The translations under genes were made by a program, and so were the position numbers. Positions 111-12,836 of a stretch of DNA of 64,000 nt are shown one piece after another; the first letter of the stretch is position 1, and each line of letters opens with the position of its first letter. The stretch lies in assembly GCF_001556865.1 (NCBI RefSeq), contig NZ_LSJY01000134.1:62001-126000 (forward strand), written 5' to 3'. Source of the DNA: Sphingobium sp. CCH11-B1. Lineage in GTDB: Bacteria; Pseudomonadota; Alphaproteobacteria; Sphingomonadales; Sphingomonadaceae. The notes beneath the pieces were generated by a model. The model had not been told where the DNA came from, ran no database searches, and saw only the letters and a program-made list of their open reading frames with translations.

Positions 111-1628
111 TCAGGCCATGCCACGCTGGACGAATTCGACCGCGATCAGCAGCAGGCAGGCTGCGGCCAGCCCACCGCTGGCGCCTGCAAACCATTTGAG
201 CCGCTGCCGCTCCAGCGCGACCTGCGCACTGGTGAGCGTTTCGCTGATCGACCCGGCCACCGGCAGGCCCAATGTCCTTTCCAGCCGTGCGGCCGTCGGG
301 AATGTGCCCTTGAGCTGGCTCATGGCGAAGGCAACGCCAACGCCCGCCGCGATGCCCAGCACCAGCACGCCAAGCAGTAGCAGCGGCCGGTTTGGCGCGG
401 ACGGGGCGGAGGGCGTGTCGGGCGGGGTGATGACACGGAACTGGACGGCGCCGGTTTCGGTCTTTACCTCTCCACGCAGGCGCAGATCCTCGCGATCGGC
501 GGTCAGCTTGTCATATTGAGCCTTGAGCGCAGCGTAATCGCTATCGAGCTTTTCCTGTTCGGAGGCAACGCCGGGTTCGTCGGCCTGACGGCTCATCATC
601 GCGTTGAGATCGGCCTGAAGCTGCGCCTTGCGTGCGCCCAGCGCCTGCACGGTCGCGGCACGTTCGGCCTGCATCGACTTGATCGACAGATAGGCCGGAT
701 TGGGCGTGCCGCCGCCCGCGGAACCGCCCCCACCCGTGCGGCGCAGGGCATCGACCTCCCGCTGGGCGGCGACGACGTCCGGATGGTTGGCGGTCCAGCC
801 ACGCGCGCGCATTGATGCAAGGTTCGCCTGCGCCTGTGCCAGCGGCGACGCACCGCCCGACGCGGACACGCCAGGCAAGCTTTGCGGCGTCCCGGCCAGC
901 TGCCCGTTCATGGCCGACAGGGCGCTTTGCGCCTGCACGAGTTGCGAGTCGATCTGGTTGATCTCCATGCGAGCGGCATCCATCCGCTGGCTGATCGATC
1001 CTGCGCCGGGCAGAAGGCCCATATAGCGCTGCGCGAATTCGGCGCGACGCTGGTCAGCCGCCGCCAGTTGCTTGCCGCGCACGGCGATCTGCTGATCGAG
1101 GAAGGCCAGGCTCTGCTTCGTCTCCCGACGGTCGCCGGAGAGATTTTCCTCCTGGAAGATGTCGATCAGCTTTTGCACGACCTGCTGCGCGATGCGGGCG
1201 TTCGCGCCGTCCGACAGGGTTGAATCCGCCGATACGGCGCTGATGTCGATCATGCTGGGATCGGCCTGCGCCATCACCGTGATATTCTCGCGCAACTTCG
1301 TGATCTTTGCCGCGACATCGGCCGGACCGGACACGGATTGCGACAGGTCAGTCGAACGGACCACCTTTTCCAGATTGTCGGCACTCGTCAGCGTCTGGCG
1401 CAGCCGGTCGAGATCCTGCTGCGACTGGACCTGGGTAATGCCGACCTTGTCTTCCAGCAGGGACTGGGTGTTCACATAGACCCGCGCTTTGGACTGGTAG
1501 CTGTTGGGGATGAACGCGACGCCCAGCCAGCCGAGCATGCATACGCCCCAGGCCACCGCCAGCGCGATCCAGCGGCGGCTCCACAAGCCATGGAGCAGGA
1601 CGCGCAATTCGTCGTACAAACCGGCCAT
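111..1628 (-). CDS. XrtA-system polysaccharide chain length determinant (Wzz family)
   Basis: 505-residue inner-membrane protein of the polysaccharide co-polymerase family, expected to set exopolysaccharide chain length. A first transmembrane helix lies near residues 15-38, followed by the Wzz motif region (NSYQSKARVYVNTQSLL). A long periplasmic stretch is rich in coiled-coil-like Ala/Gln/Leu segments (about 180-250 and 315-390). A Pro-rich linker (PPDTPSAPSAPNRP) leads into a second helix at about 412-435, and a third hydrophobic helix sits near 478-498, which the exosortase-associated subfamily has and classical Wzz lacks. The start ATG shares one base with the stop of the export lipoprotein gene, so the two are translationally coupled. 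The tyrosine autokinase follows. Confidence 0.88.
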   Translation of the reverse strand: MAGLYDELRVLLHGLWSRRWIALAVAWGVCMLGWLGVAFIPNSYQSKARVYVNTQSLLEDKVGITQVQSQQDLDRLRQTLTSADNLEKVVRSTDLSQSVSGPADVAAKITKLRENITVMAQADPSMIDISAVSADSTLSDGANARIAQQVVQKLIDIFQEENLSGDRRETKQSLAFLDQQIAVRGKQLAAADQRRAEFAQRYMGLLPGAGSISQRMDAARMEINQIDSQLVQAQSALSAMNGQLAGTPQSLPGVSASGGASPLAQAQANLASMRARGWTANHPDVVAAQREVDALRRTGGGGSAGGGTPNPAYLSIKSMQAERAATVQALGARKAQLQADLNAMMSRQADEPGVASEQEKLDSDYAALKAQYDKLTADREDLRLRGEVKTETGAVQFRVITPPDTPSAPSAPNRPLLLLGVLVLGIAAGVGVAFAMSQLKGTFPTAARLERTLGLPVAGSISETLTSAQVALERQRLKWFAGASGGLAAACLLLIAVEFVQRGMA

Positions 1629-2272
1629 CAGAACATGCTTTCCGGGATGATGATGACGTCGCCCGGCGCGAGCATGACGTTGGCGCGCGTGTCGCCCTTC
1701 TTCAGAAGGTCGCCCAGGCGCACCTGAAATTCCTTCTGCTTCCCGCTTTCCTTGTCGAAGCGGACGAGGCGAGCCCGGTTGCCGGCCGCATATTCGGACA
1801 GGCCGCCGACCGCGATCATCGCGTCGAGCAGCGTCATGTTGGCGCGATAGGGGATGGATGCCGGCTTTTCAGTCGCGCCCACGATCCGCACCTGTTGGCT
1901 GAAGGTGCCGCTGAAATTGTTGACGATGACCGACACAAGCGGATTTTCGATATATTGCGATAGCGCAAGCTTGATGTCTTCCGCCAGCATCTTGGGCGTC
2001 TTGCCCACGGCCGGCATGTCGGTGATGAGCGGCGTGGTGATGCGGCCGTCCGGGCGCACCTGGACCTTCGCACCCAGTTCCGGATTGCGCCACACGAAGA
2101 TGGTGAGATCGTCGAGCGGGCCGATCACATATTCCTCGCCCGGTCCTTCCTGCGTAGAGACGAAGGATGCAGGCGGCAGTTGCGGTCCCGATCCGCCGGA
2201 GGCGCAGCCCGAAAGCGCGACGGCCGGCAATGACGCGCCGATCAGAAGTCGGGAAACCGTCAGGAAACGCAT
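1628..2272 (-). CDS. XrtA-system polysaccharide export lipoprotein (Wza/GumB type)
   Basis: 214-residue outer-membrane export protein. The signal peptide ends in lipobox L-S-G-C with the acylated Cys at about 23. It is followed by the polysaccharide export domain (EYVIGPLDDLTIFVWRNPEL, then VRPDGRITTPLI) and one SLBB-like repeat (VRIVGATEKPASIPYRANM through LLDAMIAVGGLSEYA). I chose ATG 2272 over the TTG two codons upstream because AAGGGG lies 7 bases before it. It would form the outer-membrane channel for the polymer and pair with the chain-length protein encoded directly downstream. The 132 bp upstream, between this gene and the decarboxylase, is A+T-richer than its surroundings and could carry a promoter, though I saw no clear consensus. 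Confidence 0.88.
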   Translation of the reverse strand: MRFLTVSRLLIGASLPAVALSGCASGGSGPQLPPASFVSTQEGPGEEYVIGPLDDLTIFVWRNPELGAKVQVRPDGRITTPLITDMPAVGKTPKMLAEDIKLALSQYIENPLVSVIVNNFSGTFSQQVRIVGATEKPASIPYRANMTLLDAMIAVGGLSEYAAGNRARLVRFDKESGKQKEFQVRLGDLLKKGDTRANVMLAPGDVIIIPESMF

Positions 2273-2404
2273 AGACAAACCCCTTCATCGGGCCGTGCGC
2301 GAACCGCCGCCGACTCCGGTTCGGCGACTTGGCGGCACATGGCTTTGGGCATCTTCTTGCCGGTAAAGGGTAAAAATAGCGTTAGGAGTTAAGTGCGCGC
2401 GAAA

Positions 2405-3637
2405 TCAGCCAAGTAAAAGTTCGCGAGGACTTGGATGACCAAGAAATGCCGCCGGGCTGGCCGACGCGCCATAGGCCCCGGCCAGGAAGATGGCGATGAA
2501 GTCCCCTTCCTGCACGGGAGGCAGGGCGACCTTGTCGCCAAGCCGGTCGAGCGGCGTGCAGAGGCAGCCGACGACCGTCACAGGATTGGCGGCAGGCGAC
2601 ATGCCAAACCGGTTGGCCACCGCGATCGGATAGTTGCGGCGTACGACGGTGCCGAAATTGCCGCTGGCGGCGAGCTGGTGATGCAGCCCGCCGTCGACCA
2701 CCACGAATGTCTCGCCCTGACTGACCTTCACATCGATGACGCGAGTCAGATAGACGCCCGATTCCCCCACGAGCCATCGGCCCAGTTCCAGCGCCATGCG
2801 GCTGTCGCCCAATATGTCCGGCAGCCTGTCCATTTCGCTGTTCAGCGCCACGCCGATGGGGCGGATATCGAGCGGCGTGTCGCCGGGGAAATAGGCAAGG
2901 CCGAACCCCCCGCCCAGATTGACGAGCGGCGGGGCAGCGCCGACCCCGTCCGAAAGGCGCGCGGCGAGCGCGATCGTCGCCGACTGTGTTTCGATGATGG
3001 CGAGGGGATCGAGGTTCTGGCTGCCAGCGAAGATATGCCAGCCGCGCCACTCCGCCCCCGCGTCGATCATCGACCGTGCCAGTTCGGCGGCGCGGTCCGC
3101 GTCCACGCCAAAGGGCTTGGCCCCGCCTCCCATCCGCATGCCGGATCCTTTGAGGTCGAAATCAGGGTTTACGCGCACTGCGAGACGCGGCGTCTTGCCC
3201 AGCCGATCGGCGACCGCCAGCGCGCGCCGCCCTTCCCCTTCGGATTCCAGGTTGATCGTGGCACCCGCGAAGATGGCGGCTTCCAGTTCGTCGTCCCGCT
3301 TGCCCGGTCCTGCAAAACTGATCCGATCAGGAGCCATGCCAGCGGCCAGCGCCATCTCGAGTTCGCCGCCCGACGCGATGTCGAAGCCATCGACCTGCCC
3401 CACCATGCGAGCGAGCAGAGGCGCAAAGGGATTGGCCTTGATCGCATAATGGAGGTGGAGTCCGTCCGGCATGGCTTGGCGAAAGCGCCGGACCTGCGCT
3501 TCCACTATGTTCATGTCATAGGCGAAGAGCGGCGTGTCGCCTGCCTCATCGACAAGCGCCGCCGCGCCGCAGCCGGCGATCAGCAGCATCCCTTCCTCCG
3601 CAGCGAACCAGGATGGGATCGGTCCAGTCGGTTTCAT
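2405..3637 (-). CDS. Pyridoxal-dependent decarboxylase, exosortase-A associated
   Basis: 410-residue fold-type III PLP enzyme of the ornithine/diaminopimelate decarboxylase family. The PLP lysine is in HYAIKANP (K67). The glycine-rich phosphate loop is LVNLGGGFG, and the C-terminal domain has GCLCTPLD and GAYGASAS, matching the active-site Cys-x-x-x-Asp and Tyr regions. Family members decarboxylate D- or L-amino acids; the substrate of the exosortase-associated subgroup is, to my knowledge, not established. The start ATG overlaps the stop of the upstream AMP-ligase gene by four bases (ATGA), indicating coupled translation. With that ligase and the divergent acyl carrier protein it looks like a small tailoring pathway, which is inference. 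Confidence 0.85.
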   Translation of the reverse strand: MKPTGPIPSWFAAEEGMLLIAGCGAAALVDEAGDTPLFAYDMNIVEAQVRRFRQAMPDGLHLHYAIKANPFAPLLARMVGQVDGFDIASGGELEMALAAGMAPDRISFAGPGKRDDELEAAIFAGATINLESEGEGRRALAVADRLGKTPRLAVRVNPDFDLKGSGMRMGGGAKPFGVDADRAAELARSMIDAGAEWRGWHIFAGSQNLDPLAIIETQSATIALAARLSDGVGAAPPLVNLGGGFGLAYFPGDTPLDIRPIGVALNSEMDRLPDILGDSRMALELGRWLVGESGVYLTRVIDVKVSQGETFVVVDGGLHHQLAASGNFGTVVRRNYPIAVANRFGMSPAANPVTVVGCLCTPLDRLGDKVALPPVQEGDFIAIFLAGAYGASASPAAFLGHPSPRELLLG

Positions 3638-5163
3638 GCGCCATAGTCCTTCGCCAACGCGACCCGGTCGATCTTGCCATTGGGATTGCGGGGAAATTCG
3701 GAAAGGAGGAGAATATCCTTGGGCTGCATGAAATTGGGCAGTTCCTGTTTGACATGCACGGCCACGGCTTCGACCGTCGCAGGATCGCTCGCCCGAAGCA
3801 GCAGGCGCACGGCCTGGCCGAGCCGGTCGTCCTTCACGCCGAGCGCGACCGCCTCTGCGACGCCGGGCACGGCAACGGCGGCTTCCTCTATCTCGGTCGG
3901 GCTGATGCGGTTGCCGGCGGACTTGATCATCGCGTCGTCCCGGCCGACGAAATAAAGCAGTCCTTCCGCATTCCGCCGCACTGTGTCGCCCGACCAGACC
4001 GCCATGCCGCCATAGCGCGATGCGGGCGGCGCGGGCCTGAATCGTTCGGCGGTGCGAGCGGGATCATGCCAATAGCCCTGAGCGACCAGCGGGCCGCAAT
4101 GAACCAGTTCGCCCGGTTCGTCATCGTCAGTGACACTGCCATCGGGGCGGACCACCAGTATCTCCGCAAAAGGGATGGCGCGGCCCATGGAATCGGGGTG
4201 GGCGTCCACCAAGGCTGGCGAAAGATAGGTGGAGCGGAAGGCTTCGGTCAGGCCATACATGGGATAAAGGTCTGCGTTCGGGAACAGCGCGCGCAACTTG
4301 GCCACGAGTGGCCGGGTCAGCGCCCCACCGCTGTTCGTCAGCCGCTGGAGCTTCGCGGCGACCTCCGCCGGCCAGTCCAGTTCGGCAAGCTGGACCCACA
4401 GCGGCGGGACGCCGGCCAGCGTCGTGATATCGCGCCGGTCCACCAGCTTCATGACGTCGCGAGGCGTCAGATAGTCGAGCGGATAGACGCAACCGCCCGC
4501 ATACCAGGTGGAAAGCAGCTGGTTCTGGCCATAGTCGAAGCTGAAAGGCAGGACGCAGGCGGTGCGATCCTCCGGCGTCAGCTTCAGATAGCCGGCGACG
4601 GCGACCGCGCCGAGCCAGAGATTGGCGTGGGTGAGGACCACGCCCTTGGGTCGTCCGGTCGATCCGCTGGTATAGAGGATGGCGGCGATGGCGTCCGGCG
4701 CGACGGAGGAAGGGCGAAGCGGATCGCCCCCACTCATCGCACAGGCTGCGTCATCCTCCCGATGAAGATGGCAATGGGCGGGCACATCCCCTTGCCCCAG
4801 CGTATCGAGCCGGGCGGCGGTGCCGATCAGCAGGCGCGCGTCGCAATCGGACAGGATGTGCGATACCTGCGCATGTTTGAGCAATGGGTTTATGGGTACA
4901 TGGACAAGTCCGGCGCGCGGCGCGGCGAGCGGCAGCAGCGCAGCCACCGGCCCCTTGGCGATCCAGCTCGCTACCCGATCGCCCGGTGCCAAGCCGAACC
5001 CGGCAAGCCAGGCGGCGAGGCGACCCAGAGCCCGCTCCAACTCCGCATAGTCATAGCTGCCCGAACGGCCGTCCAGCGCCGGACGGGCGGGTTCGCCGCG
5101 CAGCAACAGATGGTCGATCGGACGCACCTCTATCCCGTCGATTAACGGATGGGCTTCAGTCAC
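3634..5163 (-). CDS. Acyl-CoA/ACP ligase (AMP-forming), exosortase-A associated
   Basis: 509-residue member of the ANL adenylating superfamily. The phosphate-binding A3 loop is YTSGSTGRPKGVVLTH, the A5 region is YPMYGLTEAFRS, the hinge is at VGRDDAMIKSAGNRISPTEIE, and the A10 lysine is in RNPNGKIDR near the C-terminus. It would activate a carboxylic or amino acid as an adenylate and pass it to CoA or to the acyl carrier protein encoded 1.1 kb away on the other strand. Translation probably starts at GTG 5163, with GGAG ten bases upstream. It is the first gene of the minus-strand run and overlaps the decarboxylase gene. The natural substrate is unknown. Confidence 0.87.
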   Translation of the reverse strand: MTEAHPLIDGIEVRPIDHLLLRGEPARPALDGRSGSYDYAELERALGRLAAWLAGFGLAPGDRVASWIAKGPVAALLPLAAPRAGLVHVPINPLLKHAQVSHILSDCDARLLIGTAARLDTLGQGDVPAHCHLHREDDAACAMSGGDPLRPSSVAPDAIAAILYTSGSTGRPKGVVLTHANLWLGAVAVAGYLKLTPEDRTACVLPFSFDYGQNQLLSTWYAGGCVYPLDYLTPRDVMKLVDRRDITTLAGVPPLWVQLAELDWPAEVAAKLQRLTNSGGALTRPLVAKLRALFPNADLYPMYGLTEAFRSTYLSPALVDAHPDSMGRAIPFAEILVVRPDGSVTDDDEPGELVHCGPLVAQGYWHDPARTAERFRPAPPASRYGGMAVWSGDTVRRNAEGLLYFVGRDDAMIKSAGNRISPTEIEEAAVAVPGVAEAVALGVKDDRLGQAVRLLLRASDPATVEAVAVHVKQELPNFMQPKDILLLSEFPRNPNGKIDRVALAKDYGA

Positions 5164-5257
5164 GGGCGCTTAACTCCATGGCGATCTTTTGGTCCTAAAG
5201 GTGGCGCGAGCGTGCGGTGGAGATAGTCGGTTGCTGGCGTCAAGGGAATATCACAGC
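5164..5257. promoter_or_regulatory. Divergent intergenic region of the XrtA/EPS genes
   Basis: Ninety-four bases separate the AMP-ligase start (minus) from the transferase start (plus), so promoters for both units should lie here or just inside the genes. I found no convincing -24/-12 element, although the XrtA regulator PrsR is of the sigma-54 activator type. Confidence 0.35.
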
Positions 5258-6241
5258 ATGGAGGAAGTGCGGCGCATGCTTGCGCCCCGGCTGACCCATG
5301 CGCCGCCCCCTTCCCTGTTCGACCGGATCGAGTGGCATGAGGCGCTGCACCGCCACTGCCTCGCCGGAACATCGCTTCGCATCGTGCAGGCGGTGGAAGG
5401 GAGCGCGGAAGTCTGGCTGATGCTGGTGTCGCCAGAACCGCGTCAGGCGACCGCGCTGGCCAACTGGTACAGTTTCCGCTGGGCGCCGCTGTTCCTGGGC
5501 GAGCCGGATGAAGAAACACGGTTGCGGTTGCTGGAGGCGGCGATGCGGCAGATGCTGTGCAGATGCGCGCATGTGGACCTTTATCCGCTGGAAGCGACCG
5601 ACGTTCTGCTCGCCGCGCTGCGCCGCAGTGGTTGGTTCGCGGTGGCAAGGCCGATGGGCGGACGGCACCTGTTGCAGGTCAACGGACGCAGCTTTTCCGA
5701 TTACTGGACGGCAAGGCCCGGCCGATTGCGCGCGCTGGTTCGGCGCAAGGGCCGGGGAAGTCCTTTCGCGCTGTCGATCCATGACGCCCTCACCGACGCG
5801 CTGTGGGCCGATTATGTCGCGGTCCATGAGCGCAGCTGGAAGGAGGCGGAGCCGACGGGCGGGCTGGCGCTGCTGCGCGAGATCGCGGAGCGGGAGGGCG
5901 TGGCAGGACGGCTGCGGCTGGGCTTCGCGCGGCAGGACGGCCGCCCGGTAGCGGCGCAACTATGGACGGTGGAGGGTGGCGCGGCGTTGATCCACAAGCT
6001 GAACCATGATCGCGCGCTCGACGCACGTTCGCCGGGCACGCTGCTGAGCCACGCCATGTTCGCCCATGCGATCGACGTCGATCGGGTCGATACGATCGAT
6101 TACGGCACCGGCGACAATGCCTACAAGACCGACTGGATGGATGTGCGCATCCCGCTCCACCGCATCGACGCCTTCAACCCGCGCTTCGTTTCGGCCTGGC
6201 TACCGGCGGCGCGGACCGCGATTTCCGCGCTTGTCGGCTAA
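5258..6241 (+). CDS. GNAT-fold N-acyltransferase, FemAB/BioF2-like, XrtA-associated
   Basis: 327-residue protein of the CelD/FemAB-like acyltransferase group. The second GNAT half is clear: SWKEAEPTGG, GRLRLGFARQDGRPVAAQLW, a Lys-Leu-Asn-His core strand (LIHKLNHD) and YGTGDNAYKTDW, typical of BioF2-like domains. The reading frame is open from a TTG at 5189, but ATG 5258 has AAGGGA ten bases upstream, so I use it. It runs divergently from the ligase and 27 bp before the acyl carrier protein gene, and probably transfers an acyl or aminoacyl group from the carrier protein or CoA to an amine, perhaps on the polysaccharide; this is inference. Relatives annotated as PEP-CTERM FemAB proteins share the context. 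Confidence 0.78.
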   Translation: MEEVRRMLAPRLTHAPPPSLFDRIEWHEALHRHCLAGTSLRIVQAVEGSAEVWLMLVSPEPRQATALANWYSFRWAPLFLGEPDEETRLRLLEAAMRQMLCRCAHVDLYPLEATDVLLAALRRSGWFAVARPMGGRHLLQVNGRSFSDYWTARPGRLRALVRRKGRGSPFALSIHDALTDALWADYVAVHERSWKEAEPTGGLALLREIAEREGVAGRLRLGFARQDGRPVAAQLWTVEGGAALIHKLNHDRALDARSPGTLLSHAMFAHAIDVDRVDTIDYGTGDNAYKTDWMDVRIPLHRIDAFNPRFVSAWLPAARTAISALVG

Positions 6242-6591: not shown

Positions 6592-7554
6592 TTACGCCTC
6601 CACCAGTTCCTCGAAATCCTGTTCCTGCAGGAAGCGTTCAACGTCGAGCGCGGCCATGCAGCCCATGCCTGCCGCCGTCACGGCCTGGCGATAGATTTTG
6701 TCGGTAACGTCGCCCGCCGCGAAGACACCGGGAATGGCGGTGTGGGTCGTGCCCTTTTCCACCACGATATAGCCTTCGTCGAGCGGCAGCTTGTCGGCGA
6801 ACAGTTCGGTCGCGGGATGATGGCCGATGGCGACGAAGCCGCCATCTGTGGGAACATGGCTCTTCTCGCCCGTCACCGTATCGACCAGGTCGACGCCGAC
6901 CAGCCCTTCCGGCGCGCCGCCGCCGACAAAGCGTTCAACCGCCTTGTTCCACAGCACCTTGATGTTCGGATGGGCATGGAGACGCTGTTGCAGGATTTTT
7001 TCCGCGCGCAGCGAATCGCGGCGGTGGATCAGCGTCACGTCATGGCTGTGGTTGGTGAGATAGAGCGCTTCCTCGACCGCGGTGTTGCCGCCGCCGATCA
7101 CCACGACCTTCTTGCCGCGATAGAAGAAGCCATCGCAGGTGGCGCAGGCGGAAACGCCCTTCCCCTGAAGATGCTCCTCGCCCTCCACGCCCAGCCATTT
7201 CGCCTGCGCGCCCGTGCAGATGACGAGCGTGTCGGCGACATAAAGCGTGCCGCTGTCGCCGCGCAGGCGGAAGGGCCGTTCGGACAGGTCCACGTCGACG
7301 ATCTGGTCGTACATCATCTGCGCGCCGACATGTTCGGCCTGTGCCTGCATCTGCTCCATGAGCCAAGGGCCCTGGATGACATCGCGGAAGCCGGGATAAT
7401 TTTCGACATCGGTGGTGATGGTGAGCTGGCCGCCCGGCTGCATCCCCTGCACCACGATCGGCGCGAGACCGGCGCGCGCGCCGTAGATGGCGGCGGACAG
7501 GCCCGCGGGACCGGAACCCAGGATCAGCATGCGGGTGGAATGGGTGGCGCTCAT
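6592..7554 (-). CDS. trxB: Thioredoxin-disulfide reductase
   Basis: 320-residue flavoprotein that reduces thioredoxin with NADPH in the cytoplasm. The FAD-binding GSGPAGLSAAIYGARAGL motif lies near residues 13-30, the redox-active CATC pair is at C137 and C140, the NADP-binding VIGGGNTAVEEA follows, and the C-terminal FAD contact is GVFAAGDVTDKIYRQAVTAAGMG. Length and motif order are standard for bacterial low-molecular-weight TrxB. It converges on the acyl carrier protein gene with 23 bp between the stops. Compare the second TrxR-like protein at 9792-11408, which lacks the cysteines. Confidence 0.97.
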   Translation of the reverse strand: MSATHSTRMLILGSGPAGLSAAIYGARAGLAPIVVQGMQPGGQLTITTDVENYPGFRDVIQGPWLMEQMQAQAEHVGAQMMYDQIVDVDLSERPFRLRGDSGTLYVADTLVICTGAQAKWLGVEGEEHLQGKGVSACATCDGFFYRGKKVVVIGGGNTAVEEALYLTNHSHDVTLIHRRDSLRAEKILQQRLHAHPNIKVLWNKAVERFVGGGAPEGLVGVDLVDTVTGEKSHVPTDGGFVAIGHHPATELFADKLPLDEGYIVVEKGTTHTAIPGVFAAGDVTDKIYRQAVTAAGMGCMAALDVERFLQEQDFEELVEA

Positions 7555-7870: not shown

Positions 7871-8791
7871 TTACGGGCGCTTCCGCTCGGCAGCCAAACG
7901 GTCGTGCAGCAGACGCCGGGCCCGTTCGACATAGCGGTGGCAGGATCCCGGCGCGCTGGCATAGCGGCCGGCCCCGGCGTTGTCGGGATGCGCGGCTATC
8001 AAAATGTCGCAGCGCAGCGCCTCCATGCGCCGGTAGCTGGCCGCGAACCCCTTCCGAAGGGGCGCGCTGGACGGGTCAGTGAAGCGATATCCCGGCGCGG
8101 ACACCGGATTGAGGCTGGAAGCGAAGACGATTTGCCGGCAGCTCCGGCCCTCGCATGCGTTCCAGCTCCAACTCATGCTGCCCATCGTGTGACCGGGCGT
8201 AGCGTGCGCCGTGATCGACGTACGGCCCAGCGTCACCCGATCGCCGTCCCGGACCGTTCGCACCTGCGCCACAGCGGGCCAGGTGCCGCCATAGCCATGT
8301 TGCGGGTCATCCGCCGCATGGCGACCGCCGCGCAGCCCCTCCGCCCCCTGCACGCTCGCCACCACGACAGCGCCGGTCGCGCGCACCAGAGCGGCAATGC
8401 CCCCCGAATGGTCGTAATGCGGTTCCGTGCTCAGAATAAATTTGATGTCTTTGGGGTCGAAGCCAAGTTTGCGAACATTGGCCAGGATGGCGGGAGCCGC
8501 CTGCGGCAATGCGGCGTCGATCAGCACCAGACCAGCGCCCGTATCGATCAGCGCCACGCTCAATCCACCGAAACCCACCAGATAGGTGCGACCGAAGACC
8601 CGCTGCGGCGGCAAGGGAGCGAGCCATTCCGCCGCCCTGTCGACGGCCATCGGCCGGGTCAGCGGATCGTCGGCCGAAGCGGCGCCGTCGACGGCCGCCG
8701 AAGGAAGAGCCCCCGCTACTCCCGCCGGCATAACCGCGGCGCCAGGGTTCAACACGGCAACCGCCACTGCGAAGCGCAACAATGAAGACAT
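7871..8791 (-). CDS. Subclass B3 metallo-beta-lactamase-like hydrolase, B3-E active-site variant
   Basis: 306 residues with an N-terminal signal peptide (about 29 residues), so the enzyme is probably periplasmic. The zinc-binding region reads S-T-E-P-H-Y-D-H: the first His of the usual HxHxDH is Glu123, followed by His125, Asp127 and His128. His201 (TPGHTMGS) and His268 (LIAAHPD) complete the site. The stretch IVFASSLNPVSAPGYRF matches the B3 signature between the last two ligands, which favours a B3 lactamase over glyoxalase-type hydrolases. ATG 8791 is chosen because GGAGAAAGAA precedes it; an upstream extension lacks signal-peptide logic. An AmpR-like regulator is transcribed divergently. 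B3 enzymes with Glu here are described, from memory, in Sphingobium; beta-lactam hydrolysis is therefore likely but untested. Confidence 0.82.
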   Translation of the reverse strand: MSSLLRFAVAVAVLNPGAAVMPAGVAGALPSAAVDGAASADDPLTRPMAVDRAAEWLAPLPPQRVFGRTYLVGFGGLSVALIDTGAGLVLIDAALPQAAPAILANVRKLGFDPKDIKFILSTEPHYDHSGGIAALVRATGAVVVASVQGAEGLRGGRHAADDPQHGYGGTWPAVAQVRTVRDGDRVTLGRTSITAHATPGHTMGSMSWSWNACEGRSCRQIVFASSLNPVSAPGYRFTDPSSAPLRKGFAASYRRMEALRCDILIAAHPDNAGAGRYASAPGSCHRYVERARRLLHDRLAAERKRP

Positions 8792-8885
8792 TTCTTTCTC
8801 CCTTCGCCACGGAGATGCCGATCCCGCGAGGGCCGCACAAAGCATCATTCCTCGACAAAGCCATGAGATTATTTGATGACACATC
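8792..8885. promoter_or_regulatory. Divergent lactamase/AmpR-like control region
   Basis: Ninety-four bases separate the two start codons. LysR-type regulators of this arrangement bind between the genes and control both. The regulator-proximal part (8860-8882) is A+T-rich, but I could not pick out a definite T-N11-A operator by eye. Confidence 0.5.
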
Positions 8886-9767
8886 ATGGATCGCGCCCAA
8901 CTCCCCCTCAACGCCCTGCGCGCCTTCGAGGCGGCGGCGCGACACCTGAACTTCACGCGGGCCGCGATCGAACTGTGCGTCAGCCAGGGCGCGGTGAGCC
9001 ATCATGTGGCGCAGCTTGAACGCCGGATCGGCGCGCGCCTGTTTCATCGCCTGCCGCGCGGACTGGCGTTGACGGACGAGGGGCATGCGCTGGTCCCGGT
9101 CCTGGCCGATGCGTTCGACCGCATGGGCGCGACGCTGGACCAATATAGCGGGGGACGCTTTCGCGAAGTGGTCAAGATCGGGGTGGTCGGGACATTCGCG
9201 ACCGGCTGGCTATTGCCGCGGCTCGACGCGTTCGCGCGCGCGCATCCGACGATCGACCTGCGGATTTCCACCAACAACAACCGCGTCGACCTGGCGGGCG
9301 AAGGGCTGGATTTTGCGATCCGGTTCGGCGACGGCGCATGGCATGGCACCCATGCCGACCCGATCATGGACGCGCCGCTGACGCCGCTCTGCGCCCCGGC
9401 CGTCGCCGCCCGGCTGGTTTCGCCCGCCGATCTTGTCCAGGAGCGGCTGCTGCGGTCCTATCGTCCCGACGAGTGGGCGCTCTGGTTCAAGGCGGCGGCC
9501 GTGGCCGGCCCGCTGCAGCGCGGCCCGATGTTCGACAGTTCCGCCCTGATGATCTCCGCAGCGACAGCAGGATTTGGGGTCGCCCTCGGGCCGCCGGCGA
9601 TGTTCCTGCGGGAACTGGCGGCGGAACAATTGATCCAGCCCTTTCCCATCATGATAGACGCGGGCAGCTATTGGCTGACCCGCCTGATGTCGCGGCCGGA
9701 GAATGAGGCGATGCGGTGCTTTTGCGAGTGGATCATGCAACAGGCCGCAGGGACGAGCGTCCCGTGA
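8886..9767 (+). CDS. LysR-family regulator, AmpR/GcvA-like
   Basis: 293-residue LysR-type transcription factor. The N-terminal helix-turn-helix reads LPLNALRAFEAAARHLNFTR, then AAIELCVSQGAVSHHVAQLE and LFHRLPRGLALTDEG, very close to AmpR and GcvA. The effector domain follows (VVKIGVVGTFATGWLLPRLD, ISTNNNRVDLAGEGLDFAIRFGDGAWHG). It is transcribed away from the B3 lactamase with 94 bp between the starts, the same arrangement as ampR-ampC, so it probably senses cell-wall fragments during beta-lactam stress and induces the lactamase. That role is inferred from similarity and context; a GcvA-type role cannot be excluded. Confidence 0.85.
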   Translation: MDRAQLPLNALRAFEAAARHLNFTRAAIELCVSQGAVSHHVAQLERRIGARLFHRLPRGLALTDEGHALVPVLADAFDRMGATLDQYSGGRFREVVKIGVVGTFATGWLLPRLDAFARAHPTIDLRISTNNNRVDLAGEGLDFAIRFGDGAWHGTHADPIMDAPLTPLCAPAVAARLVSPADLVQERLLRSYRPDEWALWFKAAAVAGPLQRGPMFDSSALMISAATAGFGVALGPPAMFLRELAAEQLIQPFPIMIDAGSYWLTRLMSRPENEAMRCFCEWIMQQAAGTSVP

Positions 9768-9791: not shown

Positions 9792-11408
9792 CTAGCCGTT
9801 CAGATAATCCCAGACCCGGGAGATGACCACCGATCCTTCGCCCACCGAGGATGCGACGCGCTTCACCGATCCCGCGCGGACATCCCCTACCGCAAAGATG
9901 CCGGGACAGGATGTGGCGTAGGGCGATCCGCCCTCGACCGGATCGCCCGTGATCACGAATCCCTTGTCGTCCAGCGCGACCAGCCCCGTCAGCCAGTCCG
10001 TATTGGGCGCCGCGCCCACCATGACGAACATGACGCAGGTCGGCACGGTCTCTTCCTCCGCCATGCCTTCCCGCCGGATCGTCACGGCGTCCAGCGTCCC
10101 CGATCCGTGCAGCGCCACGACCTGCGCGCCATATTCGATGCTGATGGCAGGATCAGCCTCCAGCCGGCTGGAGAGATAATGGGACATGGACGTAGCGAGG
10201 GTGTGACCCCGGACCAGCAGCCGCACATGGGCGGCGGTGCGGCTGAGATACATGGCCGCCTGCCCCGCGCTATTGCCGCCGCCGATCACGATGGCCTCCG
10301 CACCCTGGCAATAGCGTGCTTCATGGTCGGTCGCGGCATAATAGATGCCCGCGCCTTCAAATTCGGCAAAGCGCGCGATGGGAAGGCGGCGATATTGCAC
10401 CCCGGTCGCGACGATGACGGCCCCTGCCCGCACCTGATGCCCATTGTCGAAAGTCGCGCAGAACTGGCCGTCGTCCAGCCGGTGGAGCTGGTCGACCCGG
10501 CGCGGCATCACGAAGCGGGTGCCGAATTTCATCGCCTGCACTTCGCCCCGCCAGACCAGGTCCGCGCCCGATATGCCGGTGGGAAAGCCCATATAATTTT
10601 CGATCCGGCTGGACGTGCCGGCCTGACCGCCGATGGCGATATCCTCCACGACCAGCGCCTTCAGTCCTTCCGCGCCGGCATAGACGCCCGCCGCCACGCC
10701 GGCGGGGCCGCCGCCGACGATGAGCACATCGAACGCCTCGCATTCGCGCACGTCGCGGTTGAGGCCCAGCAATTCCGCCACCTTGTGCGGCGTGGGATCG
10801 TCGATCACCCGGTCGCGCCCGAATATCACGGCCGGTCTGTCTGAAGGGATGGCGCAACTGGCGGCGATGCGATCCGCTTCCGCGCTGCCGATGGGGTGGG
10901 AGGCAAAGGGCAGGCGATTGCGGCTGGCGAATTCGGCGATGCAGCGGATGTCGCGGCTCTCCTCCTCCCCAATGAGGACGAGCGCGCCGTCGCGATTGTC
11001 CAGCTGCCGCCGCCGCCGGGCGGACAGGACGGTGATGATGATGTCGGACATTTCCGGCATTTCCGCCATCAGCCGCAGCATGGCGTCGCGCGGCACCTCC
11101 GTCACCTGGGTATCGCGAACGGCGCGCATGGGCATGGTCCACACGCCGCCGCTCAGGAAGGAGATTTCCGCCATGAACTGCGTGGGGCCAAGCGTCGAGG
11201 AACCGTAGCGCCCGCCGGTATAGGCATCGACCACCTCGATCTCGCCATCGTCGACATAGACGAACCGATCCACGGGGTCGCCCGGCTGGACGATCGTCCA
11301 GCCCGCCGGGTAACGGGCGGGCGCGCCCGCCGCGCGCAACGCCTGGACATGGTTGGGCGCGAGCGGCACCCGCTGCATCTCGTTAAGGTCGCGGCCGATG
11401 CTTTCCAT
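9792..11408 (-). CDS. cNMP-binding domain fused to thioredoxin-reductase-like FAD oxidoreductase
   Basis: 538 residues in two parts. Residues about 1-130 form a cyclic-nucleotide-binding/CRP-like beta-barrel (IVQPGDPVDRFVYVDDGEIE, GPTQFMAEISFLSGG). From about residue 230 a TrxB-like flavoprotein follows: DVLIVGGGPAGVAAGVYAGA, IGGQAGTSSRIENYMGFPTG, NAD(P)-binding IVIGGGNSAGQAAMYLS, and FAVGDVRAGSVKRVASSVGEG. Where TrxB has CATCD this protein has AATDH, so it cannot act as a thioredoxin reductase. The partner substrate is unknown. The frame opens at a TTG at 11435; I prefer ATG 11408, but neither has a strong ribosome-binding site. Whether the barrel binds a nucleotide is not decided by the sequence I can judge. 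Confidence 0.8.
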   Translation of the reverse strand: MESIGRDLNEMQRVPLAPNHVQALRAAGAPARYPAGWTIVQPGDPVDRFVYVDDGEIEVVDAYTGGRYGSSTLGPTQFMAEISFLSGGVWTMPMRAVRDTQVTEVPRDAMLRLMAEMPEMSDIIITVLSARRRRQLDNRDGALVLIGEEESRDIRCIAEFASRNRLPFASHPIGSAEADRIAASCAIPSDRPAVIFGRDRVIDDPTPHKVAELLGLNRDVRECEAFDVLIVGGGPAGVAAGVYAGAEGLKALVVEDIAIGGQAGTSSRIENYMGFPTGISGADLVWRGEVQAMKFGTRFVMPRRVDQLHRLDDGQFCATFDNGHQVRAGAVIVATGVQYRRLPIARFAEFEGAGIYYAATDHEARYCQGAEAIVIGGGNSAGQAAMYLSRTAAHVRLLVRGHTLATSMSHYLSSRLEADPAISIEYGAQVVALHGSGTLDAVTIRREGMAEEETVPTCVMFVMVGAAPNTDWLTGLVALDDKGFVITGDPVEGGSPYATSCPGIFAVGDVRAGSVKRVASSVGEGSVVISRVWDYLNG

Positions 11409-11542
11409 CAGGGGCGCGCCATGGGACGGAAGCAACGACGGACCGAGGGTGGGTGCGGGCTGGTCAGCTTGCGTCTCCGTGGCGGGGGTTGCTGCCCGAG
11501 ACTATCGTCCACGACGACGCTGGCCGCAACCCGTATGTGGCG

Positions 11543-12556
11543 TCAGCTGTCGACCTTCGGCGTCGGCAATGCGGGCTGTCCGCCCGCCGCGGCGGGCGGC
11601 ATCAATTCCCGGATCACGCCCCAATAGCCCTGCGAGATATGGGCGTGCGCGACAAAAGCGGGATCGGTCATCAGATGCCGGTGGAGCCGGCGCAGGTTGG
11701 TCCAGGGGACCGACGGGAACAGATGATGTTCCAGATGATAGCTGACATTGAGGGGGGCGATGAGGAAGCGGTCGAGCAGCGTCGGGATGATCGTGCGCGT
11801 GCCGTTCAATTCCCGTTCGTTGGCGACGCCATTATGCTCCGCGATCGCCCTGATCCGGTTGAAGACGTTGGCCCAGATGAATTGCGGGATCAGCAGCAGG
11901 CCCAATATCTGCCAGCGCCACGGCAGGCACAGGATCGCGCCGTAGAAGGCCACCGCCCAGACCACGTAGCGGATGCGCAGCGCCAGCGGATAGTCATAGC
12001 CGAAGCGGCCGGGATTATGGAAATTGGCGAAGGGCGCCCAAATGCGGCTGTCGCGGGCCATGCGATGGAAGTTGAGGCCGGTCACGCTGCGCACCAGCAG
12101 CCAGGCCATGGCGGCGGGGCTTTTGGGAAAATGCTGGTCCGGGTCGCGCCGCTGCACGCGATAGTCGCGGTCGCGCAGCGTGTTGGTGTAGCGGTGGTGA
12201 TAGAGATGGTTGGCGCGGTAGAGGTGGATGCTGAAGCCGAGCGGATAGGCCACGAACAGGTCGCCGACCAGATCGTTGACGCGGCGGTTGCTGAACAGCA
12301 TGCCGTGGCAGGCATCGTGCATCATCACCGCCAGCACCTGAATGCGCGAACCGATGACGAAGCCGGCCAGCAGATAGACCGGCACGCTGTCGATGGCGAT
12401 GGCGAGCGCGCAGACCGCGATCATGATGGCCCATTGGAGCACGAGCAGGATAGCGTTGCGGGAATCATCGATGACGGACAGCTGCCGGATCAGCGGCAGC
12501 GTGCCGCGCCGGGAATAGCGGTATCCCGGTGGACGCTGCTCAGCGATGTCCTCCAC
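11543..12556 (-). CDS. Membrane fatty acid desaturase
   Basis: 337-residue di-iron membrane enzyme. The three histidine boxes are present: HDACH (H80, H84), HLYHH (H117, H120, H121) and HLEHH near the C-terminus, with hydrophobic helices between (about 35-80, 95-112, 195-230). Such enzymes insert a cis double bond into an acyl lipid using oxygen and an electron donor; the position of the bond is not predictable here. I chose GTG 12556 because GGAGA lies nine bases upstream; the frame itself is open from a TTG at 12583. It follows the cNMP/FAD oxidoreductase gene on the same strand with a 134-bp gap, so co-transcription is uncertain. Confidence 0.85.
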   Translation of the reverse strand: MEDIAEQRPPGYRYSRRGTLPLIRQLSVIDDSRNAILLVLQWAIMIAVCALAIAIDSVPVYLLAGFVIGSRIQVLAVMMHDACHGMLFSNRRVNDLVGDLFVAYPLGFSIHLYRANHLYHHRYTNTLRDRDYRVQRRDPDQHFPKSPAAMAWLLVRSVTGLNFHRMARDSRIWAPFANFHNPGRFGYDYPLALRIRYVVWAVAFYGAILCLPWRWQILGLLLIPQFIWANVFNRIRAIAEHNGVANERELNGTRTIIPTLLDRFLIAPLNVSYHLEHHLFPSVPWTNLRRLHRHLMTDPAFVAHAHISQGYWGVIRELMPPAAAGGQPALPTPKVDS

Positions 12557-12836
12557 GGGCGAGTGTCTCCGATGCCGCAACAAGCCGTTCGGATTCCCTA
12601 TGGCCGGCGCCGGGCGGCGTCAAGCGCCCGGCCCCCAGTCGCGACGGCGCGGGACGGGCATGGGCAGCCCCGTCGCGCGCGATTAAAAATTGCCTCCCCT
12701 GCCCGTTTCCGGCAACCAGCAATGGGCGCAATGGTTGTCTCGCCCGAGCGGGACGACCGATGCGTCCGCCCTCGATTCAAGGATCGGTCGCGCCGCATGT
12801 CCGATGCGCCATCGATCGAGCCAGGAGACTGCCCGG
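12557..12836. other. 280-bp divergent intergenic region
   Basis: It lies between the desaturase (minus) and the molybdopterin oxidoreductase (plus). It contains a perfect 8-bp inverted repeat, GCCGGGCG at 12609-12616 and CGCCCGGC at 12625-12632, with no T-tract. A strong ribosome-binding site AGGAGA at 12823-12828 serves the plus-strand gene. Nothing else is evident. Confidence 0.5.

Follow-up and report, generated by a model that had tools for sequence, protein, structure and literature searches.

The closest described enzyme is SIE-1 of Sphingobium indicum (7LUU), which a 2023 review (PMC10318434), in its accessible text, gives as the sole characterized B3-E metallo-beta-lactamase; it holds two zinc ions and acts on all major classes of beta-lactams, cephalosporins best, and it bears out the statement, in an earlier note on this DNA, that Glu variants of B3 enzymes had been described from Sphingobium. 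Pairs of a LysR-type regulator and a metallo-beta-lactamase are, as such, already published. In Vibrio, VarR represses varG and beta-lactams relieve this repression indirectly, according to the accessible part of PMC5595328; in Phytobacter, CARR represses blaCAR-2, and the accessible part of PMC12434095 reports no relief by piperacillin or ampicillin. In the literature readable without subscription, we found no description of an AmpR-type partner for a B3-E enzyme.

The window, a stretch of 64,000 nucleotides from Sphingobium sp. CCH11-B1, carries a B3-E enzyme gene with a divergent AmpR-like regulator gene (Table 1). The ATG start of the enzyme is preceded by GAAGGGAGAAAGAA, and its N-terminus is hydrophobic, with an export signal read by eye; an alternative longer frame, with a GTG start and extending to 8956, is the less likely start and overlaps the LysR gene. 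In the alignment, Glu123 lies within STEPHYDHSGG, His125, Asp127 and His128 correspond to B3 positions 118, 120 and 121, and His201, Ser226 and His268 correspond to positions 196, 221 and 263, the serine at 221 being the B3 state. The six ligand positions have Glu at 116 and canonical residues at the other five, the replacement of the first zinc His in an otherwise intact B3 signature having been read correctly in the earlier note. This is the pattern expected of B3-E when the subclass B3 zinc ligands are taken as H/Q/E116, H118, H196, D120, H121 and H263 (PMC10740994, accessible part).

The NCBIfam model for subclass B3 (NF033105) gave the enzyme 258.8 bits, above its curated cut-off of 240, and the best match among solved structures was 7luu, at 469 bits, followed by Rm3 at 205.6 bits. 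Glyoxalase II or another non-lactamase hydrolase of the same fold, which the earlier note had named as the competing identity, was rejected at 22.1 bits versus 469 for 7luu. A Sphingomonas sp. BHC-A protein (P0006), which contains both of the two 7luu stretches that were tested, is 71.3% identical to the window enzyme over 303 aligned residues. None of the six ligands, Glu123 included, varies among the 121 aligned proteins (120 matches listed of 1,003, plus the window enzyme), and STEPHxDH occurs in every one of the 33 genome loci (L001 to L033) kept from a search of genome contigs, a 34th locus (L034; 33% identical and not B3-E) having been left out. These comparisons support the assignment to B3-E; the enzyme probably hydrolyzes penicillin-type antibiotics, and carbapenem-type activity would be expected by analogy with the breadth of SIE-1. 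Since the nearest solved structure is that of SIE-1, itself a B3-E enzyme, the Glu variant was already known; the metal site that had been called unusual is so in having Glu at 116 but is not new, as this variant has been described and a structure with two zinc ions solved for it.

Table 1. Features of the enzyme-regulator pair in the window and replicons filed as plasmids that carry the pair
Feature	Position	Strand	Basis or remarks
Subclass B3 metallo-beta-lactamase, assigned as B3-E variant, 306 aa	7871..8791	-	NF033105, 7luu, ligands, tree
Predicted Zn1/Zn2 motif Glu-Pro-His-Tyr-Asp-His	8408..8425	-	Codons 123-128; Glu at B3 position 116
His201 codon (B3 position 196)	8189..8191	-	
His268 codon (B3 position 263)	7988..7990	-	
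Divergent intergenic gap, 94 bp	8792..8885	.	
Operator-like site ACAAAGCATCATTCCTCGACAAAGCCATGA	8837..8866	+	1 mismatch to consensus ACAAAGCATSATTTCTCGACARAGCCATGA
T-N11-A core TCATTCCTCGACA	8845..8857	+	Within operator-like site
AmpR-like LysR-type regulator, 293 aa	8886..9767	+	Thr103, Asp135, Ser219, Tyr262; domains, structures, alignment
Plasmid-filed replicon, Sphingobium sp. RAC03			893 kb
Plasmid-filed replicon, pTomMM15b	L236 = AP027316.1 217461-226198		290 kb; typed conjugative
Plasmid-filed replicon, Sphingomonas parapaucimobilis			880 kb

The regulator combines a LysR helix-turn-helix domain (PF00126) with a substrate-binding domain (PF03466), and its closest solved relatives are the AmpR effector domains 5mmh (262.5 bits) and 3kos, in keeping with the AmpR-like character that had been attributed to a LysR protein divergent from the enzyme across 94 bp. 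GcvA (8y6u) matched at 169.6 bits, with both domains covered. Two NCBIfam models were not reached, GcvA at 264.6 bits (below 288) and PenR (NF041130) at 393.4 bits; as the curated cut-off of the latter is 625, the regulator was not filed as PenR. In the aligned stretch, Val, Ala and Phe of 3kot replace Thr, Ser and Tyr of 3kos, presumably at the AmpR pocket positions T103, S221 and Y264. Thr103, Ser219 and Tyr262 of the window regulator match the three pocket residues altered in this mutant, and all are intact; across 47 regulator rows linked to Glu-type enzymes, Thr103 and Tyr262 are each kept in 47 and Ser219 in 44 (Ala in 3). Gly102 and Asp135, structurally important in Pseudomonas aeruginosa AmpR according to the accessible text of PMC8401664, are conserved in all 47. 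The AmpG family (TIGR00901) scored above its cut-off in all eight relatives tested. The label AmpR-like is supported by these matches, and the regulator probably switches the enzyme gene on.

The distribution of the pair was examined in 298 genomes of a single family, the one to which G001 (S. fuliginis; locus L015) belongs. B3 genes were found, at E <= 1e-40, at 150 places in 147 of these genomes, and residue 116 was His in 127, Glu in 19 and Gln in 4. A quick tree built from 156 rows, with SH-aLRT support only and one long branch (L099), placed the 25 Glu rows in a single clade (support, 99) that includes SIE-1, in line with the B3-E identity proposed from the letters, and the 4 Gln rows formed another (100). 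The Glu clade is attached through a branch with support of 96 to 99 His rows with the motif S/T-H-E/D-H, from which it differs as a block, chiefly by Thr122 for Ser, Glu123 for His, Pro124 for Glu and Phe223 for Tyr; by alignment, His-Glu has turned into Glu-Pro in the Glu clade.

Of the 33 B3-E loci, 31 have a divergent regulator (L021 reaches a contig end, and L004 is without one). In the family sample, with an AmpR-like open reading frame of >200 bits within a 1.5- to 2-kb flank as the criterion and a few flanks cut short by contig ends, such a neighbor adjoins 15 of the 19 Glu genes, always divergently, all 4 Gln genes (L046, L048, L052 and L107; same strand in 3 and divergent in 1) and 1 of the 127 His genes (L108, divergent). 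Glu and Gln each form one clade, so only two independent contrasts exist; the tree gave only two independent pairs for non-His residue 116 versus regulator (median p, 0.5), with which the association cannot reach significance. The genomes of the four Glu genes without a flanking regulator contain none elsewhere either at E <= 1e-80, and the enzyme can thus do without it.

The gap is poorly conserved in sequence but for a block whose end lies about 20 bp ahead of the regulator, where the operator-like site of the window stands 19 bp before the LysR start and 45 bp before the enzyme start. All 47 regulator-bearing Glu rows (43 distinct loci including the window, four genomes being counted twice) contain the consensus at 0 to 5 mismatches, at a distance of 19 to 22 bp from the regulator start in 39 rows and of 57 to 159 bp in 8. 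The site is lacking from the His loci without the regulator, taken as a control (best match, 10 to 14 mismatches in 126 of 126), and from the Gln-linked loci (11 to 14 mismatches). At <=3 mismatches, the 298 genomes yielded 17 sites in 17 genomes, versus 0 for a reversed-pattern control: 15 at Glu-regulator pairs, one at a regulator-hydrolase pair (L218, in G053) and one at a class A pair (G263). The same search in the 33 genomes of the B3-E loci found 34 sites: every genome had one ahead of the enzyme, and G006 had an additional one. Because the site is almost unique per genome in these scans, the regulator looks nearly dedicated. Locus L004 holds a perfect site (4836-4865) and no regulator in its 10.8 kb, perhaps through natural loss of the AmpR-like gene. 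The T-N11-A feature has been reported for VarR too (PMC5595328, accessible part), and a scan of the 94-bp gap for sigma-70-like promoters returned none.

At E <= 1e-80, the regulator was present in 31 of the 298 genomes, next to 15 Glu, 4 Gln and 1 His enzyme, 9 class A beta-lactamases (7 called by NCBIfam and 2 by Pfam) and 1 hydrolase (L218) among the 30 whose neighbor was scanned; the remaining regulator is that of G018 (L239). In a midpoint-rooted regulator tree with several long rows, the 47 Glu-linked rows grouped with L218 (support, 96), with class A-linked rows on both sides, and the four Gln-linked rows stood apart (93). Since related regulators adjoin class A beta-lactamases, partners seem to have been exchanged between class A and B3 enzymes, which we read as regulator-enzyme partner exchange across the serine and zinc beta-lactamases.

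The regulator may have a second target, an exported alpha/beta hydrolase, which is offered as a lead. In G006, the additional site (3 mismatches) is located between trxB and a plus-strand gene whose 336-aa product has a hydrophobic stretch near its N-terminus, matches alpha/beta hydrolase families and shares 50% identity over 292 residues with the hydrolase of L218; in the latter locus, a site with 4 mismatches (1451-1480) accompanies the hydrolase gene (439-1413), which diverges from an AmpR gene that belongs with the B3-E-linked ones. The left half of the site, CAAAGSATSATTTCTCGR, at <=1 mismatch, occurred 35 times in the 33 genomes (reversed control, 0), 28 times at the enzyme and 7 times ahead of hydrolase orthologues. 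These seven loci (L260 to L266) are 98.8 to 99.3% identical over 3.8 kb and therefore count as one lineage; the stretch probably represents a mobile or shared element of recent origin, and the frame of the hydrolase in L260 seems split. Two observations weaken the idea that the hydrolase is a general second target: L258, an orthologue at 84%, has no good site, and 20 of the 33 genomes with the B3-E enzyme are without such a hydrolase at E <= 1e-40; L259 likewise has no good site (best match in the two loci, 12 mismatches). The 3.8-kb stretch is found in Sphingopyxis-type genomes (six of the seven are so named, one of them a Sphingomonadales bin). Locus L238 contains an operator-like site (3134-3163) ahead of an exported alpha/beta hydrolase (3215-4225).

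The pair is also found on three replicons filed as plasmids; the enzyme reads STEPHFDH there, the site shows 0, 0 and 3 mismatches, and on pTomMM15b an annotated relaxase gene, trwC, lies two genes from the pair. In a near search with positions 1-25000 of the window, none of the plasmid records reached a coverage of 80%. Around the pair, the window contains genes associated with XrtA exosortase polysaccharide systems (111-5163; TIGR03007, TIGR03099 and TIGR03098) and the thioredoxin reductase gene trxB (6592-7554). The product of the gene at 9792-11435 is 547 aa long; its C-terminal half resembles thioredoxin reductase (TIGR01292, below cut-off), and about 230 residues at the N-terminus are additional to this. 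For the open reading frame at 11543-12583 a guanitoxin hydroxylase identity was rejected (NCBIfam, 104.6 bits; cut-off, 380). Gene order is kept in L001, as trxB (99%), an acetyltransferase-like gene (5189-6241; 87%) and the thioredoxin-reductase-like gene (95%) are common to it and the window.

We consider it quite likely that the pair is a beta-lactam-responsive resistance module. The regulator would sit on the 30-bp site between both genes; beta-lactams would disturb the cell wall and give rise to muropeptides imported by AmpG, and these would bind the effector pocket of the regulator, so that the enzyme gene is turned on. The exported enzyme would hold two zinc ions, with Glu/His/His and Asp/His/His as ligands, and would hydrolyze beta-lactams as SIE-1 does. 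Inducibility is suggested by orthology, the intact pocket residues, the conserved operator-like site and the presence of AmpG in relatives; binding of zinc, DNA and ligand, hydrolysis and the direction of regulation are likewise predictions. Counted against the module are the failure of the regulator to reach the PenR and GcvA models, the 4 of 19 Glu genes without a regulator, the solitary site of L004, the promoter scan of the gap and the behavior of CARR, a divergent LysR protein of another B3 enzyme that only represses and does not respond to beta-lactams (PMC12434095, accessible part).

CARR is also the precedent for reading the regulator as a plain repressor, or one answering a signal other than beta-lactam damage, so that the pair would be regulated without being beta-lactam inducible, and the repression of varG by VarR, with its indirect relief, points the same way. 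We think this unlikely, because CARR is described in the accessible part of PMC12434095 as poorly conserved with AmpR, whereas the best solved relatives of the window regulator are AmpR proteins, its own relatives adjoin class A beta-lactamases and it keeps the AmpR pocket positions. The 30-bp block might instead be a promoter or an untranslated leader, since it overlaps a region that must hold both promoters and persists in L004 without the regulator; that it is not a binding site for the regulator nevertheless seems very unlikely, for it contains the T-N11-A core, all four Glu loci of the sample without a regulator are also without the block (13 to 14 mismatches), and weaker forms of it lie next to class A-linked regulator starts (6 mismatches in L221, 8 in L223, L224 and L226 and 9 in L225). 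As a matter of general chemistry, Glu as a zinc ligand could weaken metal binding, and the enzyme might then be a poor beta-lactamase with some other main substrate; this is highly improbable given SIE-1, in which the same ligands hold two zinc ions and all major classes are attacked (PMC10318434, accessible part), and given that the type of regulator is common to the module and class A beta-lactamases.

Beyond the module itself, a wider scenario may be drawn, although we regard it as rather doubtful: in Sphingomonadaceae-type bacteria, an AmpR-like regulator would have passed from class A to B3 enzymes at least twice, each time into a lineage in which the first zinc His had been replaced (Glu once and Gln once), while 126 of 127 His genes in the sample are without such a neighbor; the inducible module and its dedicated 30-bp site would move together, on a conjugative plasmid too, and the regulon would include the exported hydrolase, maybe acting on cephalosporin side chains or peptidoglycan esters. 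If true, altered zinc sites would be tied to expression on demand.

The kind of resistance module is largely known, and what is added here is the census, the operator-like site and the partner exchange. The Glu lineage is one clade, usually accompanied by an AmpR-like regulator of its own and an operator-like site that is nearly unique, so that harmless environmental strains offer a direct way to test induction; partners appear to be exchanged between serine and zinc beta-lactamases, and the pair can adjoin a conjugative relaxase gene. With SIE-1, the window enzyme has the EHH/DHH ligands and the clade in common, at 71% identity (via P0006), and 29% of residues are unlike; the accessible text of PMC10318434 mentions no regulator for SIE-1. 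VarR-VarG and CARR-CAR-2 resemble the window pair in that a LysR gene and a metallo-beta-lactamase gene are divergently arranged, about 111 bp apart (PMC5595328 and PMC12434095, accessible parts), but the VarR operon includes an efflux pump (PMC5595328), and CARR is reported as unlike AmpR and CAR-2 is a His-type enzyme (PMC12434095). The class A-linked AmpR/PenR loci of the same family (L221 to L227, L231 and L234) have related regulators, 57 to 66% identical, and in L221 and L223 to L226 a site resembling the B3-E site adjoins the regulator start, whereas their enzymes are serine beta-lactamases, of another class than the window enzyme. AmpR/ampC (AmpR structures, 5mmh and 3kos) shares with the window pair a LysR fold by sequence, a divergent beta-lactamase gene and the effector-pocket positions; the partner of AmpR is a class C enzyme (PMC5595328, accessible part), and that of the window regulator is a zinc enzyme.
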